From Methanoregula sp. (lineage in GTDB: Archaea; Halobacteriota; Methanomicrobia; Methanomicrobiales; Methanospirillaceae): a DNA stretch of 64,000 nucleotides. The stretch lies in the NCBI GenBank assembly GCA_026625165.1, contig CP112999.1, positions 310,001 through 374,000 on the forward strand, in the 5' to 3' direction. Below, piece after piece: positions 2,159-45,879 of the stretch. Position 1 is the stretch's first letter, and each line of letters starts with the position of its first letter. Both the position numbers and the translations under genes were made by a program. The notes below the pieces were generated by a model that was given only the letters and a program-made list of their open reading frames with translations, had not been told where the DNA came from and searched no databases.

Positions 2159-3640
2159 TCAGAACGAGATCCCCATCGCCCACGGGATGAGCGTGATCGT
2201 GCTTAAAAGGATCAGGAACAACCCAATCAGGTTCAGGACAAGCCCGGACCTCACCATCTCCCGCACGGTCACGTGCCCGGTACCATAAGCGATCGCATTG
2301 GGGGGTGTTGCAACCGGCAGCATAAAACCCAGCGTTGCCACAAGCGAGGAGAGCAGCATAAGCATGAGGGGATTGATCCCGATGCCGGCCCCGAGCACCG
2401 CCATGAGCGGGACCATGATCGCAGCATTGGCGGTATTGGAGATCAGTTCGCCGAATAAAAGGAGACCGACCCCGATCAGGGCAACGACAACAACATGCGG
2501 GAACGCGGAAAGGAACGAGAGGCTTGATACCAGCATGTGAGCAAACCCGCTTTTAACAAATGCCGACGAGAGGCACAAACCCCCCCCAAAGATCAGCAGG
2601 ATCCCCCACGGGACTTTTACCGCCGTCTCCCAGTTCATCGTAAATATCCCCTTTTCCCGGTCCACCGGAAGCAAAAAGAGCAGGATTGCGCCCGCAATCG
2701 CGATCATGGAATCCGATATTCCGGGAACGATTATGTCGAGGCCGGGTATCGTTACGCCTCCGATTACCTTTGTATTCTCAAAGATCCAGGCAAGGGCGGT
2801 TGCAGCAAAGACAAGGAGAGTCCACCGTTCACCGCGGTTCAGTGCGCCAAGGCCCCCGATCTCCTGCCCGATGATCTGCTGTATCCCGGGAATAGTCTCC
2901 GGCATTCCCCGGAACGCGATCCCGGTTAACCAGAACCATGCGATGAGAAGGAAGATTGCGGCAAACGGGAACCCGAATTTCAGCCAGGTAAAAAAATCGA
3001 CCGGCAGTGAACCGGGAAAAAGCGTTTCAGCCTGCGCAACAAAGATGCCGTTTGCCGGTGTGCCGATAATCGTACCAATCCCACCGATCGTTGCGGCATA
3101 AGCAACCCCAAGCACGAGGCACACCCGGAATTTCCTGACCCCATCGGGCACTGGTTGTCCCCCTTCTTCCCCGGTCAGCGCGGCGAGAATGGCGACAGCC
3201 ATGGGGATCATCATCATTGCCGACGCGGTGTTGGAGATCCACATCGAGAGAAAGGCTGTCGCCGCCATGAACCCAAGCACGAGCCGCTTCGGGCTGGTGC
3301 CAGAGGTCCGGATAATCTTCAGTGCGATCCGGCGGTGAAGCCCCCAGCGCTGCATGGCGGCCGCGATGATGAACCCGCCAAGGAACAGGAAGATGATCTG
3401 GTCGCCGTAGGATGCTGCTGCATCCTTTATTGTCAGTATCCCGAACAGGGGGAACAGGACAAGGGGAAGCAGGGCGGTTGCGGCAAGCGGGACCGGCTCG
3501 GTAATCCACCAGAGCACCATGAGGGCAGCAATCGCGGTCGTGTATTTCACAGGTGACGGTATCCCGTACATTTCGACCGGCAGCAGCGTGATCGAACAAA
3601 AGAGGATGATGCCGGCGATGATGCATGGTACCTGCCGCAT
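2159..3640 (-). CDS. SLC13/DASS family anion:sodium symporter
   Basis: A 493-residue membrane protein with about 11-13 hydrophobic segments. It carries the two family-defining SNT motifs, in SNTASAMMMIPMA (from residue 136) and SNTANAAIMVPLMA (around 400). Each is paired with a substrate loop, GTPANGIFVAQ and TPPNAIAYGTG. This two-fold inverted repeat is characteristic of divalent anion:Na+ symporters that take up di- or tricarboxylates, sulfate or phosphate. The substrate cannot be read from sequence. It lies divergently from the MFS gene; the roughly 200-base spacer holds AT-rich promoter elements for both, for instance TATAAAAAAAG on the minus strand near 3680. Confidence 0.9.
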   Translation of the reverse strand: MRQVPCIIAGIILFCSITLLPVEMYGIPSPVKYTTAIAALMVLWWITEPVPLAATALLPLVLFPLFGILTIKDAAASYGDQIIFLFLGGFIIAAAMQRWGLHRRIALKIIRTSGTSPKRLVLGFMAATAFLSMWISNTASAMMMIPMAVAILAALTGEEGGQPVPDGVRKFRVCLVLGVAYAATIGGIGTIIGTPANGIFVAQAETLFPGSLPVDFFTWLKFGFPFAAIFLLIAWFWLTGIAFRGMPETIPGIQQIIGQEIGGLGALNRGERWTLLVFAATALAWIFENTKVIGGVTIPGLDIIVPGISDSMIAIAGAILLFLLPVDREKGIFTMNWETAVKVPWGILLIFGGGLCLSSAFVKSGFAHMLVSSLSFLSAFPHVVVVALIGVGLLLFGELISNTANAAIMVPLMAVLGAGIGINPLMLMLLSSLVATLGFMLPVATPPNAIAYGTGHVTVREMVRSGLVLNLIGLFLILLSTITLIPWAMGISF

Positions 3641-3842
3641 AGAGGATCATTCAGTTTAGGGGTTGCTGTTCATTATACTTTTTTTATAACGGGAGAATTG
3701 AACGATTACCGGAATACCACCCGGCACCGAAAATGAAATCTTTATTAAAAACTGCCGGTAAATAACAAACATTCCGGAAAAAATACGGCCTTTTTTTTGG
3801 GCCGGCATTCCCGTCCACATCACCGGCGTGCGTGTTTTAACC

Positions 3843-5348
3843 ATGATGGACCCAAAAGAGACCTTAAGCGACGACGATATAACAGAAGGGCTCTCGTATA
3901 TCATTAAAGACGGGCTCGCCACGCAGGCCATGGTCACGCTGACAAGCGGGATCTTCCTTGTCGCGTTCGGCCTCCAGCTTGGCGCGTCCAATACGGTGAT
4001 CGGGCTGCTTGCGGCAATCCCGCCGCTTGCCGAGCTGATCCAGATGCCCGCCATCCCGTTTGTGGAAAAGGTCCGCAACCGGCGGCTGGTCTGCGTCGGC
4101 GCCTCGATTGTCGCAAGGTTCTTCTGGCTCGTCATCGCCTTTATCCCGTTTCTCTTCGGGCCGGCTGCCGCCGTGCCCGTCCTGGTCGGGGCGCTCGTCC
4201 TGTACGGGAGCATCTCTGCCATCTCCCACTGCAGCTGGAACTCGTGGATGCGAGACCTTGTGCCCGAAGAGATACTGGGCAGTTTCTTCTCCCGCCGCAT
4301 GGCCCTGTCCCTTGCCCTTGGGATCGTCCTGTCATTAGCTGCCGGTGCCCTGATCGATTTCATCCAGAGGAACACGGCATTTCCCCCGGCCACTGCCTAC
4401 TCGGTCATCTTCCTTGGCGGTTTTGTCGCCGGGCTGTTTGGGATCTGGTATATGTCAAAGATCCCGGAACCGTTGATGAAGGAAACGCCCAAAGTCCCGC
4501 TTCTTGACCAGGTCCGGTCTGCTTTTTGCGATGACAACTTCACCCGGTTGATCTCTTTTCTGGGCGCATGGAACTTTGCGGTAAACCTTGCCGCACCGTT
4601 TTTTACCGTCTACCTGCTCGTCATGCTCGATTTTGATATCACGGTCGTCATCGCGCTTGCCATCATCAGCCAGGTCGCAAGCGTGCTCTCCTACCACATG
4701 TGGGGCAGGCTCTCCGACCGGTTCAGCAACAAGTCTGTCCTGCGGGTCTCGGGACCACTCTTTATGCTCTGCATCCTTGGCTGGACGTTTACGACCATGC
4801 CCGCAAGGCACCTGCTGACCGTCCCGCTCCTTGTCGCCCTGCATGTCCTGATGGGAGTCTCGACAGCGGGGGTCACGCTCGCATCGGCAAACATAGGGCT
4901 CAAGCTTGCACCCCATGGCGGCGCAACCGCGTACCTTGCCACGATCAACATCACAAACTCCCTTGCCGCCGGCATCGCACCGGTCATCGGCGGGATGTTT
5001 GTGGACTCGTTCAAGGCGACCGAACTCTCGCTCACCCTGAACTGGAAAAGCCCACAGACGGCCTTTGCCATCCAGACGCTGGACTTCCAGTACTGGGACT
5101 TTTTCTTTTTCTTTGCATTTTTAATCGGGATCTACTCGATCCACCGGCTTGCCTATGTCAGGGAGGCCGGTGAGGTGGAGGACCGGCTTGTCGTCCGCGA
5201 GCTGATAGCGCAGGTCAGCCGCGAGATGCGCAACCTCTCCACTGCCGGGGGGCTGCGGTACATGCTCAGGTTCCCGGTGCTCCGGAGCACCGGAACAGCA
5301 ACGAAGGAAAAAGAGGACGGGGATGACGGGCCCCCGGTGCAGGAATGA
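3843..5348 (+). CDS. Major facilitator superfamily transporter, substrate unknown
   Basis: A 501-residue protein with about 12 hydrophobic segments, two six-helix halves and a soluble C-terminal tail of about 60 polar residues. The loop GRLSDRFSNKSVLRVSG is the MFS signature loop between helices (GxLxDRxxxK/R). The first half begins with a cytoplasmic acidic segment (ETLSDDDITEG). I start at the ATG at 3843; a GTG at 3828 would add five residues, and the tandem ATG leaves a one-codon uncertainty. An AT-rich box (CTTTATTAAAA, about 3740) can serve as promoter. No neighbouring enzyme suggests a substrate. Confidence 0.85.
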   Translation: MMDPKETLSDDDITEGLSYIIKDGLATQAMVTLTSGIFLVAFGLQLGASNTVIGLLAAIPPLAELIQMPAIPFVEKVRNRRLVCVGASIVARFFWLVIAFIPFLFGPAAAVPVLVGALVLYGSISAISHCSWNSWMRDLVPEEILGSFFSRRMALSLALGIVLSLAAGALIDFIQRNTAFPPATAYSVIFLGGFVAGLFGIWYMSKIPEPLMKETPKVPLLDQVRSAFCDDNFTRLISFLGAWNFAVNLAAPFFTVYLLVMLDFDITVVIALAIISQVASVLSYHMWGRLSDRFSNKSVLRVSGPLFMLCILGWTFTTMPARHLLTVPLLVALHVLMGVSTAGVTLASANIGLKLAPHGGATAYLATINITNSLAAGIAPVIGGMFVDSFKATELSLTLNWKSPQTAFAIQTLDFQYWDFFFFFAFLIGIYSIHRLAYVREAGEVEDRLVVRELIAQVSREMRNLSTAGGLRYMLRFPVLRSTGTATKEKEDGDDGPPVQE

Positions 5349-5550
5349 CCCGGTCGCAAGGGACCAAAACGCACGCCCGCACAGCCCCCGGATTGCACCG
5401 GGAGGCACCGTATCACACGGGTTAGCGGATGGTTACGGCACAGGGGAATGGTACCGGCAGCCGGGCGGAAAAATGATGCTACAAAAGCCAACCTTTATCG
5501 GTACGGTGCAACATAGACACTTTTTACAAGAAAACCGGGATGCCTGACTC

Positions 5551-6123
5551 ATGACTGCACAAAACAGGAAGCCGTATGGCTGGCGCGGGACGATACATGA
5601 TCTCCTGTTAGTCCCAAGGCAGGAATGGCGCAACGCACTTGACCGGCATTATGCCGCACGCATGAACCATCCTGCCGATGACCGGGTGTCTGCACTGTGG
5701 GAGCAGGCGTTTGACGTATTTAAAAAAGAGCTCAAACAGCTTGTCCAGGTAAAACCGGAGCTTGAGCATTACACAATCATTTTTGAATATGAAGTGCCCC
5801 ATTCCAGCGCGAGGGGCCCCGACATCGTCATCCTCGGGAGCTCGGTTTTCATCCTCGAATTCGTGGACTGCGACGAGATTTTCCAGGCCCATGTCGACGC
5901 GACCTGCGCGTATGCGTCCGATGTCGGGCAGTACCACCGGAAGCCCCTCAAGGCCGAGATCATACCGGTCCTTGTCTGTGCACGGGCAAAGGGCGTGATC
6001 CGGCGCGTCGGGGACGTGGTCGTCCTGTCCCCTGACCATATCGGGGATTTTTTAAACGTGCAGGCCGAACTGGAAACTGACCTTCCGATAGATGCCGACG
6101 AGTGGCTTTCCGGCCGCACCTGA
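5551..6123 (+). CDS. Stand-alone DUF2075-type N-terminal nuclease-like domain
   Basis: A 190-residue protein. YGWRGTI near the N-terminus, IIFEYEVP, GPDIVIL, ILEF and QAHVDATCAYASDVGQYH resemble the N-terminal PD-(D/E)xK-like region of DUF2075 (COG3410) proteins, where it precedes a Schlafen-type helicase. Here the protein ends after the domain and no helicase follows. The expected catalytic Lys after LEF is Val (ILEFVDCD), so nuclease activity is doubtful, although the Asp of GPD and the Glu remain. The assignment rests on recalled motif pattern. It could be a nucleic-acid-binding derivative. Spacing of 202 bases from the MFS gene, with a weak AT-rich box, suggests separate transcription. 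Confidence 0.6.
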   Translation: MTAQNRKPYGWRGTIHDLLLVPRQEWRNALDRHYAARMNHPADDRVSALWEQAFDVFKKELKQLVQVKPELEHYTIIFEYEVPHSSARGPDIVILGSSVFILEFVDCDEIFQAHVDATCAYASDVGQYHRKPLKAEIIPVLVCARAKGVIRRVGDVVVLSPDHIGDFLNVQAELETDLPIDADEWLSGRT

Positions 6124-39317: not shown

Positions 39318-40241
39318 GTGCGTCCGGAGAAAGTGCAGGATAAAACGGGCAAGGCAAGGGTCCGGAAGGGCTCACAGGGTGCCAAGCAGCAGGTGTTGTC
39401 CCATGAACCTGCAGAGCTCAAAAAATTTACAAACCGGATTATCTGCGGGAATGCACAGCAGGTGCTTGCCCGGCTCCCTGCCAGGAGTATCGATCTTATC
39501 ATCACATCCCCGCCCTACAATTTCGGGCATGCCTATGCACAGGACTCACGGAATGATACCTGTGCATGGAATGAATATTTTGCCCAGCTCCTTATGGTAT
39601 GGCAGGAGTGCGAACGGGTATTGAAACCCGGCGGGCGGATAGCCGTGAACGTCCAGCCGCTTTTTTCTGATTACATCCCCACGCACCACATCATCTCGTC
39701 CCAGCTCCAGGGCCTCGGATTGTTATGGAAGGCGGAATTTGTCTGGGAGAAGAACAACTACAATGCAAAATATACAGCGTGGGGGAGCTGGAAGTCGCCA
39801 TCGATGCCCTATATCAAGTACACATGGGAGTTTATCGAGGTCTTTGACAAGGAGACGCACAAGAAGGGCGGCAGGAGGGAGGATATCGATATCACCGCTG
39901 ACGAGTTCAAGGAATGGGTGATCGGGAAATGGTCATTCCCGCCGGAGATCAGGATGAAGGACTATGGTCACCCCGCGATGTTTCCCGAAGAACTGCCAAG
40001 GCGGCTGATGAAACTCTTCTCGTATAAAAACGACATCGTGCTTGACCCGTTCAACGGGGCAGGGACGACCACACTTGTCGCAGGGAAGCTCGGGCGCCGG
40101 TTCATCGGGATCGATATCTCCCGGCAGTACTGCAATACCGCACTTCAGCGCCTCGGAGTGGTATCAAAAGGACATGAGCCATCCGATGACTCTCCCCGGC
40201 CGGCGATCCTTGAGCTTGACGGCACGGGCAGTCGCAGCTGA
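39318..40241 (+). CDS. Orphan N4-cytosine/N6-adenine DNA methyltransferase
   Basis: A 307-residue DNA methyltransferase. The catalytic motif TSPPYN (63-68) precedes the SAM-binding motif DPFNGAGTTTLVAGKLGRRF (about 243), the beta-class order. SPPY rather than DPPY favours N4-methylcytosine. It resembles archaeal CTAG-type methylases in general layout, but the target cannot be read from sequence. No restriction endonuclease gene is adjacent: sufC lies divergently upstream and a transglutaminase-like gene convergently downstream. Some of the basic N-terminus (before residue 35) may be beyond the true start. Confidence 0.88.
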   Translation: MRPEKVQDKTGKARVRKGSQGAKQQVLSHEPAELKKFTNRIICGNAQQVLARLPARSIDLIITSPPYNFGHAYAQDSRNDTCAWNEYFAQLLMVWQECERVLKPGGRIAVNVQPLFSDYIPTHHIISSQLQGLGLLWKAEFVWEKNNYNAKYTAWGSWKSPSMPYIKYTWEFIEVFDKETHKKGGRREDIDITADEFKEWVIGKWSFPPEIRMKDYGHPAMFPEELPRRLMKLFSYKNDIVLDPFNGAGTTTLVAGKLGRRFIGIDISRQYCNTALQRLGVVSKGHEPSDDSPRPAILELDGTGSRS

Positions 40242-42214: not shown

Positions 42215-43324
42215 ATGTCCCGAACCGGTATTCTGACAATGGCAGCTGTTCATGCCCAGTCCCGGATGGGAGCCCATTGGCAGCAGCGTATGGAGGCGCT
42301 GCGGGAGTACGAGGTCATCCGCGACGGGAATATATCAGGGACAAGTCTTTATGGCCGGTATCTCCTCTCTTCTGAATATAACCGGGCCCGGGAGCACCTT
42401 GCCCTTCTGTTGAAGACATTCGAGGGGGTCCCGCTATCAAAAGTTTTTGCCGGCAGGGAGCTGGAAAATGAGGAGGGAGTATGTTTCTTGCTTGAGAGCC
42501 TGCACCCACTCCCCCCCAAGTCAGTTGATATTGAAAGATTCAGGTCAGCGATCGTTGCGGATCTCACCCTTGTCCACGGGATCGGGGAAGCGAATCAGCG
42601 CCGGTTAAAAGCGCGGGGGTACCAGACCCTTTATGACCTTGCACAGACACCAAAGTTCCGGGTGCCGGCCCTGCAGGTGATCGACCATCTGGACGGCGGC
42701 AATTCTGAAGAATTGATCAGCCTTATCGGGAGAAGGCATGCGCGGTCCCACCCGCTCGTCCTCGGCGCGGCCTCGTACCATGAGCCGGAGGATTACGTGT
42801 TTCTTGATATCGAGACGCTCGGTCTCTTTTCCCGCCCGATCATCCTTTTTGGCATCGGGGTGCTGGAGAAAGGGCAGCTGGTTGTCCGCCAGTACCTGTT
42901 GCGCGGTATCGATGAGGAGCAGGCAGCCCTTGCGGCAGCATGCGATCACCTGTCTGGTGAACAGCCGGCCCTTGTAACATTCAACGGGAAATCCTTTGAT
43001 CTCCCCTACATGCAGGACCGGCTCGCATATTATGGAATGGGCAGCGCCTCCCGCCTCCCCCATTTCGATGTCCTTTTCTTTTCAAGGAGGAGGTGGCGCG
43101 ACCAGTTCTCCTCGTTACGCCTTAGTGTACTTGAAAAGGAGATATTAGGGATCCGGCGGGAGGAAGACATTCCCGGCCAGATGGTGCCTGAGTTCTACGA
43201 GAAATACCTGCAGACACAGAACTGCGGCCCGCTCGTCCCGATCGTTGAGCACAATAAACAGGACGTGGTATCGCTCGCAATGCTCTTCTTCCGGTTACTT
43301 GAGGACTATGACGGCTGTTGTTGA
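42215..43324 (+). CDS. MrfB/YprB-like DEDDh-type exonuclease with helix-hairpin-helix
   Basis: A 369-residue protein. Residues about 105-165 contain a helix-hairpin-helix (LVHGIGEANQRRLKARGYQTLYDLA). The RNase H-like exonuclease domain follows: VFLDIETLG (ExoI, about 195), LVTFNGKSFDLPYMQ (ExoII) and VEHNKQDVVSL (ExoIII, about 345), giving the acidic DEDD set. Bacillus YprB/MrfB has the same domain and sits beside the helicase YprA/MrfA, as here. The 3' end overlaps the helicase start by 17 bases. A role in repairing mitomycin-like lesions is inferred by analogy. Exact start uncertain; a later ATG at 42239 is possible. Confidence 0.85.
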   Translation: MSRTGILTMAAVHAQSRMGAHWQQRMEALREYEVIRDGNISGTSLYGRYLLSSEYNRAREHLALLLKTFEGVPLSKVFAGRELENEEGVCFLLESLHPLPPKSVDIERFRSAIVADLTLVHGIGEANQRRLKARGYQTLYDLAQTPKFRVPALQVIDHLDGGNSEELISLIGRRHARSHPLVLGAASYHEPEDYVFLDIETLGLFSRPIILFGIGVLEKGQLVVRQYLLRGIDEEQAALAAACDHLSGEQPALVTFNGKSFDLPYMQDRLAYYGMGSASRLPHFDVLFFSRRRWRDQFSSLRLSVLEKEILGIRREEDIPGQMVPEFYEKYLQTQNCGPLVPIVEHNKQDVVSLAMLFFRLLEDYDGCC

Positions 43325-45623
43325 TCTTGTCGGCTTTCTTTGCCAGAACCCGGTGTACCGGAACCGTGTCGTACACACGAGCGTCACCGGACCGGAACCC
43401 CCACAGTACGGAACGTTGTCCTCCCCGCTAAACGACGCGATGGCAGGATACCTTGACCAGAGAGGGATGCGGCTCTATACCCACCAGTGTGATGCCATCA
43501 ACAACATCCGCAACGGGAAAGACGTCATCATCACTACCCCGACGGCAAGTGGCAAGACGCTTGCGTTTAATATCCCGGTATTTGAACGTCTCGCGGTCGA
43601 TCCGGACGCGCGGGCGCTCTATCTTTATCCGACAAAAGCGCTTGCAAACGACCAGCTGGCCACTCTGGAACAGATTGCGCGGTTCACCGGGATTTCCGCA
43701 CGACCTGCGATCTATGACGGGGACACGCCGCAGTCAAAACGGCCGGCAATCCGGGAGCATGCCCGGGTGGTCATCTCCAACCCGCATGAAATTCACCAGC
43801 TGCTCCAGTGGCATTCCAGGTGGAGCGATTTTCTTTCGAACGTAGAGTTCATCGTGATCGATGAGGCGCACCGGTACCGGGGAGTATTCGGATCCCATAT
43901 CGCACTTATGATCCGCAGGCTCATCCGGCTCTGCGATCATTACCGGTCCAGCCCCCGGTTCATCCTTTCGACCGCAACGCTTGCAAACCCGCGTGAGTTT
44001 GCCGGGCGGCTGACCGGCCGGGCGTTTGAACTCGTGGACAGGGACGGTTCGCCCCATGGCAGGAAGCATTTTGTTCTCTATAATCCTTTTTATGACGGGA
44101 TTGGCGAGCGCTCAACCCACCAGGAGACAAAAGACCTGCTGGTCTCGTGTACAAAAGCCGGCCTCCAGACGCTTTGTTTTACCGGCTCCCGGAAAATGGC
44201 AGAGCTGATCACCGTCTGGGCACGCGAGGACGCCCGGCTTTTCTCCCCAAAACTTGCCGGCTCGATCGCTTCGTACCGGGCCGGGTACCTCCCGGAAGAA
44301 CGCAGGGCGCTCGAACGGCAGTTCAAGGAAGGCTCCCTGAAAGGGGTGGTCTCCACAAACGCACTCGAACTCGGAATTGATGTCGGTTCGCTGGACGCCG
44401 TTATCATCTCGGGATATCCGGGCACCATGATATCGACCCGGCAGCAGGCCGGGCGTGCCGGGAGAAACGGGGGCGCATCGCTTGCCATCCTTGTCGCGCA
44501 GGCAAACCCGCTTGACCAGTATTTCATGAACCATCCCGACAAGTTTTTTAAGCGTTTGCACGAGCATGCGGTTGTGGACACGGATAACCCCTACATTGTC
44601 TCGGGGCACATGCTCTGCGCTGCGGCCGAGATCCCGTTACGGGATGAGGCGGGCGGAGAATATTTCGGGAAGGGGTACCTCCGTTTGCGTACAGAACTTG
44701 CGGCAAAGAACCTCCTGAAGCAGACCTCGCGCGGCTGGGTATATGCAGGGCGGGGCAGGGCAGCAGGCGCCGTAACTCTCGATGGCATTCCAGCCGAGAC
44801 GTTCCGGATCATGTGCAACGGGAGGCTGCTTGAGACCAAGGACCGGGCGCAGGCATTCCGCGAAGCTCACAAGGGTGCGATCATGCTGCATCAGGGGCAG
44901 AGCTATATCGTGAAGGAAATGGACCTTGAAACGCATACGGTCCGCGTCGTGGAAACCGATGTTGATTATCACACGCAGCCATTAAAGGAGGTCACCCTTG
45001 CTATTATCGAAAAACTCGAAACCCGGACGATCAACGATGCCCGATGTGCATTTGGCGAGGTGGAGGTGACTGAGCAGTACACCGCGTACAAGATCAAGCG
45101 AGGGGATACAATCATCGGCGTGGAGCCGCTCTCCCTCCCCCCGCTCACGTTCAGGACGATGGCATTCTGGATCATTCCTCCTGCCGCTCTCGAACAGGAA
45201 GTTACCGTGGCAGGACTCGACCTTGCCGGGGGACTGCATGGCGCGGAGCATGCAATCATCGCGCTGATGCCCCTCCATGTCCTGTGCGACCGGTGGGACA
45301 TCGGCGGTTTGTCATCACCGGTGTATGGTGACAGCGGCGAGCCGGTGATCTTTGTCTACGATGCGTATGAAGGGGGGATCGGGCTTGCCGAAAAGGCATT
45401 TGAGATCCTCCCAGTCCTCTTCTCCACTTCGCACGAGCTTGTCCGGGACTGCCGGTGCGAGGAAGGGTGTCCGTCCTGCATCTACTCCCCCAAGTGCGGG
45501 AATGACAACCAGCCGCTGGATAAAGAGGCGACATTGCGGATTCTCAAAGGCCTGTGCGGGGTGCCGGATGATAGGGCAGGGTGTGCGGCACTGCCATGTG
45601 AACCCGGACATGCTGCCCGGTAG
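43308..45623 (+). CDS. MrfA/Hrq1-like DEAH helicase with C-terminal zinc domain (DUF1998)
   Basis: A 771-residue superfamily 2 helicase. Walker A is TPTASGKT, motif II IVIDEAHRYRG, motif III ILSTATLANP. The second RecA domain has CFTGSRKMAEL, VSTNALELGIDVGSLDAV and RQQAGRAGRNGG. The C-terminal domain ends in CRCEEGCPSCIYSPKCG, the four-Cys signature of DUF1998 helicases such as MrfA and Hrq1. The family translocates 3' to 5' on DNA and acts in crosslink or bulky-lesion repair. ATG 43308 is taken as start, inside the exonuclease gene, so translation is coupled. Confidence 0.93.
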   Translation: MTAVVDLVGFLCQNPVYRNRVVHTSVTGPEPPQYGTLSSPLNDAMAGYLDQRGMRLYTHQCDAINNIRNGKDVIITTPTASGKTLAFNIPVFERLAVDPDARALYLYPTKALANDQLATLEQIARFTGISARPAIYDGDTPQSKRPAIREHARVVISNPHEIHQLLQWHSRWSDFLSNVEFIVIDEAHRYRGVFGSHIALMIRRLIRLCDHYRSSPRFILSTATLANPREFAGRLTGRAFELVDRDGSPHGRKHFVLYNPFYDGIGERSTHQETKDLLVSCTKAGLQTLCFTGSRKMAELITVWAREDARLFSPKLAGSIASYRAGYLPEERRALERQFKEGSLKGVVSTNALELGIDVGSLDAVIISGYPGTMISTRQQAGRAGRNGGASLAILVAQANPLDQYFMNHPDKFFKRLHEHAVVDTDNPYIVSGHMLCAAAEIPLRDEAGGEYFGKGYLRLRTELAAKNLLKQTSRGWVYAGRGRAAGAVTLDGIPAETFRIMCNGRLLETKDRAQAFREAHKGAIMLHQGQSYIVKEMDLETHTVRVVETDVDYHTQPLKEVTLAIIEKLETRTINDARCAFGEVEVTEQYTAYKIKRGDTIIGVEPLSLPPLTFRTMAFWIIPPAALEQEVTVAGLDLAGGLHGAEHAIIALMPLHVLCDRWDIGGLSSPVYGDSGEPVIFVYDAYEGGIGLAEKAFEILPVLFSTSHELVRDCRCEEGCPSCIYSPKCGNDNQPLDKEATLRILKGLCGVPDDRAGCAALPCEPGHAAR

Positions 45624-45636
45624 CAGCACGGGGAAT

Positions 45637-45879
45637 TTAGTCCACGAGCACAACCCGTTCTTGAGGTGCCTCAGGTTCTGGCAGGCTGTTGTCAAAGAGG
45701 AAAAGGTCATCAATACGTGCGTGCAGGGCTACAGCGACATCGTGAGCGAGTTTGAGCGACGGGTTATATTTCCCCTGCTCCAGAAAAACGATTGTCTCTC
45801 GCCGGACACCAATTTTTTTTGCAAGGTCGTCCTGCGTCATGGAAAGCCGTGTCCGGTATGCCTTTATCCTTGTCTGCAC
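45637..45879 (-). CDS. XRE-family helix-turn-helix regulator
   Basis: An 80-residue DNA-binding protein. [50 protein letters not shown] is a classic Cro/XRE helix-turn-helix with the R/QxTQ-DLA pattern; [10 protein letters not shown] follows, as in the short archaeal YgzD-like regulators. It probably represses its own operon with the DUF2178 gene upstream (28-base gap), through the twin palindromes at 46310-46361. Confidence 0.92.

Follow-up and report, generated by a model that had tools for sequence, protein, structure and literature searches.

In Bacillus subtilis, MrfA (YprA, 6znp) is a helicase and MrfB (YprB, 8un9) is a Mg-dependent 3′-5′ DNA exonuclease, and both belong to a single pathway that deals with mitomycin C damage alongside UvrABC (PMC11194089). 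How MrfA and MrfB meet is described in that paper as unknown, and an AlphaFold model in it wraps the N-terminus of MrfB around the winged helix of MrfA. In the MrfAB/YprAB clade, YprA helicases of the repair branch are associated with MrfB homologues (Bell et al. 2025 preprint, PMC12458937). Here we describe two overlapping genes at the 42215–45623 region of a 64,000 nucleotide stretch of a Methanoregula sp. genome (contig CP112999.1, positions 310,001–374,000; the whole stretch is referred to as the window), which constitute a genuine archaeal form of MrfAB that is conserved among relatives. The archaeal pair does not simply replicate the Bacillus operon: its gene order is reversed, a helix-hairpin-helix (HhH) stands ahead of the exonuclease and there is no tetratricopeptide repeat (TPR). 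Like the MrfAB/YprAB clade, it associates a repair-branch YprA helicase with an MrfB homologue; the clade text of PMC12458937, in the sections consulted, makes no mention of an archaeal MrfAB, of an HhH or of the N-terminal segment, although its supplementary tables may list such genomes. The literature searched, which was poor in subscription papers, yielded no account of the archaeal pair, of its HhH and inverted gene order or of the decay of the nuclease N-terminus. The features of the locus are as follows.

42215..43324, + strand: MrfB-like DEDDh exonuclease gene, 369 amino acids (aa) plus stop (open reading frame, domain and fold evidence)
42278..42451, + strand: N-terminal helicase-associated segment of the nuclease, W22 to G79, 59 aa (nuclease length comparison, DNA alignment)
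42551..42652, + strand: HhH stretch, approximately residues 113–146 of the nuclease, absent from Bacilli MrfB
42797..43288, + strand: RNase_H_2 / DEDDh 3′-5′ exonuclease core, residues 195–358
Residues within the exonuclease core: catalytic D198, E200, D262, H346 and D350; wedge position L204
43308..43324, + strand: 17-base overlap of the nuclease and helicase frames (read from the sequence)
43308..45623, + strand: gene for an MrfA/YprA-like superfamily 2 (SF2) helicase of 771 aa, stop codon included in the coordinates, ATG at 43308
43479..44471, + strand: helicase core, DEAD (residues 58–229) to Helicase_C (residues 276–388) (Pfam; motifs conserved in 65 helicases)
44574..44741, + strand: WHD_HRQ1 winged-helix match, helicase residues 423–478 (Pfam)
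45243..45482, + strand: MZB (MrfA Zn-binding, DUF1998), helicase residues 646–725, Cys4 at 715–724

A preliminary description, made from the window sequence alone, had called the first product a DEDD-type exonuclease with an HhH and the second a DUF1998 helicase with a C-terminal Cys4 domain. Both open reading frames (ORFs) and their 17-base overlap lie where it had placed them and are far beyond chance, and the domain assignments were borne out. The nuclease starts at the ATG at 42215, with an alternative in-frame ATG at 42239. A GAGG at 43301–43304 precedes the helicase ATG, and translational coupling through the overlap is possible on these sequence features. Each gene is single as such in the 2.17-Mb genome; the other helicase matches in it are distant (28–31% identical).

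Analysis of the nuclease with Pfam revealed RNase_H_2 (PF13482) at residues 195–358 (E 7.4e-36). D198, E200, D262, H346 and D350 were kept in 103/103 aligned paired-type nucleases, and H346 and D350 likewise in all 31 Bacilli MrfB in the alignment. The only strong solved relative by sequence was Bacillus MrfB 8un9 (E 2.3e-22), which was also the best fold for the AlphaFold2 model (Foldseek 1.7e-9; predicted local distance difference test, pLDDT, 64.9, and approximately 85 in the exonuclease core). Alignment of model residues 70–367 with 8un9 gave a VIA-align Z of 19.5 over 208 residues, the next entry having a Z of 15.3. The nuclease and helicase models lean to the MrfB and MrfA folds because they were built from alignments of the window proteins with Bacilli MrfB or MrfA; the sequence searches are free of this lean. 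The likeness to Bacillus MrfB covers the DEDDh site, the F-D Exo II pair, the fold and the tree position, as well as an N-terminal beta element ahead of the exonuclease (in the alignment from model residue 70) and, in the alignment consensus, a conserved N-terminal helix followed by a variable linker. Two helices were predicted in the N-terminal segment of the model, with low confidence.

The archaeal protein differs from Bacillus MrfB in two domains. No TPR was found in it by Pfam or by alignment to Bacilli MrfB, and it ends approximately 19 residues past D350. Additionally, an HhH of approximately 35 residues is inserted ahead of the exonuclease. The HhH is weak by profile in the window protein (TIGR03491, E 0.0013; PF10391, E 0.05), but family members share this stretch, and in 2/10 proteins it matched HHH_5 (PF14520) at E 0.0015 and 0.0054, under the curated cut-off.

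A better fit of the nuclease to another RNase H family, which the preliminary description had named as evidence against its proposal, was not found. When the exonuclease cores of 57 proteins were placed in a tree, Bacilli MrfB (12 proteins) grouped with the archaeal nucleases of the paired type (26 proteins) and apart from 18 unpaired archaeal RNase_H_2 proteins (support 97/92). All 18 of the latter had Tyr in place of the MrfB His (DEDDy), and the tree and this substitution together argue against the other family. The unpaired archaeal HhH-RNase_H_2 proteins (approximately 250–280 aa, other classes of the phylum) resemble the paired nuclease in having an HhH ahead of RNase_H_2; the HhH stretch was found in 27/37 unpaired archaeal proteins and in 0/80 Bacilli MrfB. 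They differ in being DEDDy, in forming a separate clade, in having no N-terminal segment and in having no adjoining MZB helicase in the cases compared. A 1000-aa nuclease 'fusion' (G068, locus L045; codes of the type G001 denote genomes, L loci, and f and g families and genera as labelled in the analysis) was rejected, its extra part being an over-long frame of low complexity that runs against other genes. In an Acetoanaerobium noterae record (L158), a 316-aa DEDDh RNase_H_2 protein (4944–5894, + strand) adjoins, by eye, a divergent UvrD-like helicase ORF (3111–4919); no YprA helicase was found in this 10.5-kb locus.

The helicase contains DEAD, Helicase_C, WHD_HRQ1 and MZB domains (Pfam), and the MZB cysteines C715, C717, C721 and C724 were kept in 65/65 aligned archaeal helicases. 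Its best solved relative by sequence was MrfA 6znp (E 1.1e-147), which was again the best fold for the AlphaFold2 model (4.8e-64; pLDDT 70.6), so that the structure comparison proposed in the preliminary description returned both Bacillus proteins. It scored 496 bits against MrfA and 769 bits against TIGR03817. The SF2 core, WHD_HRQ1, the MZB with Cys4 and a full-length alignment are shared with Bacillus MrfA. The helicase is approximately 38% identical to Bacilli MrfA and about as distant from it as from unpaired archaeal and actinobacterial YprA relatives (35–40%). A careful tree grouped the archaeal pair, lone archaeal copies and Bacilli MrfA against the unpaired archaeal and actinobacterial proteins (92/97); a grouping of the archaeal pair with Bacilli MrfA alone was not clearly rejected (approximately unbiased test, p-AU 0.061). 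A quick tree gave 96 for a different grouping that is compatible with the careful tree, and the idea, drawn from the quick tree, that the helicase contradicted the nuclease tree was dropped, as the careful tree places the archaeal pair on the Bacilli MrfA side. Orthology to MrfA over other YprA repair helicases is favoured by the trees but not settled. Second, unlinked YprA-type helicases were seen in four genomes (L054 in G052, L055 in G001, L056 in G031 and L057 in G104) and in the trees clustered separately from the paired helicases, though close to them.

The conservation of the pair beyond this genome was analysed in 120 genomes drawn from the order and in 295 genomes of the phylum. The nuclease was present in 93/120 order genomes and absent at E<=0.001 in the other 27; a close helicase (E<=1e-60) was present in 80/120. 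Loci could be judged in 106 of 108 nuclease-bearing genomes, with the helicase directly downstream in 88 and not in 18 (16 in genus g15 and one each in g29 and g25). Six of the adjacent pairs (f14, f15 and f7) lie outside the order and were chosen for high MZB scores; with these excluded, the pair was adjacent in 82/100 judgeable nuclease-bearing order genomes, a count that leaves out two genomes cut by contig ends as well as G032 and G061. In the phylum sample, RNase_H_2 was found in 271/295 genomes and MZB in 223/295, and in seven loci compared from other classes of the phylum, each with one or other gene, the two never occurred together. Among loci with both genes, the nuclease was first in 27/27 archaeal loci whereas the helicase was first in 78/78 Bacilli loci. 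The bacterial relatives were the best 80 of one contig scan, all Bacilli; gene order and trees therefore cover Bacilli only, as bacterial phyla besides Bacillota were hardly sampled. Viral contigs gave three short, distant matches only, and plasmids one lone Geobacillus MrfB and few other matches. In one genome (G109:C1:670319-673645, L076) both genes look broken, the helicase frame having one TGA and one TAG and the nuclease lying in two frames.

The proposal in the preliminary description that this is the same pair as in Bacillus was right in kind, as both families and their pairing were found, but incomplete in detail: the order is reversed, an HhH is present, the TPR is missing and the g15 nuclease often occurs without the helicase. 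The nuclease therefore does not need its partner everywhere. The nuclease tree, from which five broken or partial rows were excluded, needs four changes of paired state, and helicase loss occurred on at least four occasions. A DNA alignment of g15 genomes showed flanks that are flush at either edge of the absent helicase, and in G083 a deletion scar follows the nuclease gene (L053, 7669–7820), in which the first approximately 33 and the last 18 helicase codons adjoin. The orphan nucleases retain the active site and are, judged by the ratio of non-synonymous to synonymous substitution rates (dN/dS), under purifying selection (median 0.27 over 91 pairs from 14 genomes; 0.17 over 36 pairs from nine genomes for paired nucleases).

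The loss of the helicase was accompanied by a loss of constraint on the nuclease N-terminus in g15. The W22–G79 segment is exactly 59 aa in 57/58 helicase-bearing genomes from seven lineages (f1, f3, f2g21, f2g30, f5g15, f5g31 and f6g16), the single exception lying in f1. Within g15 its length is the same in 9/9 genomes that carry the helicase, and all 16 judged genomes that lack it have a shorter segment, the product of several distinct in-frame deletions. Among the 17 g15 genomes with no helicase next to the nuclease, of which G351 is cut by a contig end, the segment measured 25–50 aa and was 59 aa in 0/17. In relatives lacking the helicase, deletions most often remove residues approximately 15–36; at the DNA level they vary from lineage to lineage, and the start region of the nuclease gene is conserved. 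The table of segment lengths leaves out three broken or partial rows, and the motif-based length count does not include three of 27 family-f5 rows without the search motif. We read these lengths as a dependence of the segment on the helicase, and the segment is probably a helicase-docking element. A fuller account can be offered only tentatively, and we hold it with some doubt: the helicase losses in g15 would expose the MrfAB joint, the first approximately 60 nuclease residues holding the helicase and being eroded by separate in-frame deletions after its loss while the exonuclease persists in a helicase-free role. The segment would then be the docking element modelled for Bacillus MrfB, in an archaeal pair that is reversed and equipped with an HhH.

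Several observations weigh against this account and against a joint repair function. Overall, only 57/86 helicase-bearing genomes have the 59-aa segment, and 28 paired genomes of f14, f15, f7, g25, g27 and g23 do not. The g25 and g27 paired rows keep the tryptophan (6/6) and a near-constant segment of 53–55 aa; the f14, f15 and f7 pairs have no tryptophan and a segment of 55–64 aa. In g23 the segment ranges from 31 to 62 aa over 16 paired genomes, so the pair exists there with an eroded segment. The g23 helicases cover on average 0.60 of window helicase residues 3–40, compared with 0.86 or more in every other group, a post hoc hint that both sides of the joint are eroded in this genus. In G083 the helicase is gone but the segment is intact, perhaps because the loss is young. 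A tree-based test of N-terminus against helicase presence contained four independent pairs, of which approximately three agreed (sign test, p 0.25, not significant); the contrast within g15 is clean, yet it stems from few events. Furthermore, helicase-less lineages keep the nuclease, which must act there in something without the helicase, the TPR of Bacillus MrfB is absent, the helicase joins Bacilli MrfA without full support, and the activity, damage phenotype and contact of the archaeal pair are predictions only.

The locus neighbours are, by eye, housekeeping genes (SufBC, SepRS, TYW1-like and ArgRS), in an order common to relatives. An ORF with a TSPPY-type DNA methyltransferase motif (39318–40241, + strand; by eye) lies between the SufC-like and transglutaminase-like genes, a position where no such ORF was seen among the listed loci of relatives. 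A small XRE-like helix-turn-helix ORF (45637–45879, - strand; by eye) is convergent with the helicase end and is a possible regulator.

This neighbourhood bears on whether the pair instead defends the cell against viruses or plasmids, as do DISARM, Druantia, Dpd and ARMADA, which use YprA-family helicases. The YprA family does include defence branches (PMC12458937), and the helicase matched PADLOC defence helicase models of 66 families, the best being DruE1 at 148 bits. The MrfA and TIGR03817 matches are far stronger, however, the nuclease had no PADLOC match, the 771-aa helicase is without the large insertions reported in defence-branch proteins, and the genes sit among housekeeping genes and are inherited along lineages rather than in islands; we consider a defence role very improbable. 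A more serious alternative is that the nuclease is a general 3′-5′ exonuclease, acting in recombination or at the replication fork, with the helicase one of several optional partners, so that the overlap reflects co-expression and no joint lesion-excision machine exists. The purifying selection on orphan nucleases and the repeated helicase losses fit this, as does the presence of UvrB in 119/120 order genomes at E<=0.001 (over the curated cut-off in 110/120, window genome included). The frequent adjacency, the invariant nuclease-first order and the decay of the g15 segment once the helicase is gone fit it poorly, and we regard it as unlikely.

It is also somewhat unlikely, though slightly less so, that the archaeal and Bacilli pairings were separately assembled from the same two families as convergent operons and do not descend from one ancestral MrfAB. 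Such an origin would suit the opposite gene orders, the archaeal HhH and the restriction of the TPR to Bacilli. The best trees, in contrast, place both proteins beside their Bacilli counterparts (the helicase together with lone archaeal copies), and the bacterial pairs sampled are from Bacilli only. Descent from a single ancestral MrfAB whose genes were later reordered and two independent pairings are both possible.

If the two genes are an archaeal form of the MrfAB (YprAB) pair for DNA repair, which we consider the probable reading, they would work as follows. The 3′-5′ SF2 helicase of the YprA repair branch would open damaged DNA, and the DEDDh 3′-5′ DNA exonuclease, joined to it, would trim the opened strand past the lesion; the gap would then be filled by DNA polymerase and ligase. 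The activities and their polarity are assigned here by analogy with the Bacillus proteins, as is lesion excision itself. The N-terminal segment of the nuclease, consisting of the helix around W22 and the linker to G79, would attach it to the helicase. The HhH is a common DNA-binding element; standing in for the Bacillus TPR, it would give the nuclease its own grip on DNA, and it may replace the DNA-gripping part of that domain. As UvrB is present in the genome, the pair would add to nucleotide excision repair and not substitute for it. The pair is a candidate archaeal excision route beside UvrABC. The helicase losses independently point, in a way that can be tested, to the end of the nuclease that the published model implicates in MrfB, and genomes with and without the N-terminal segment are now identified for comparison.

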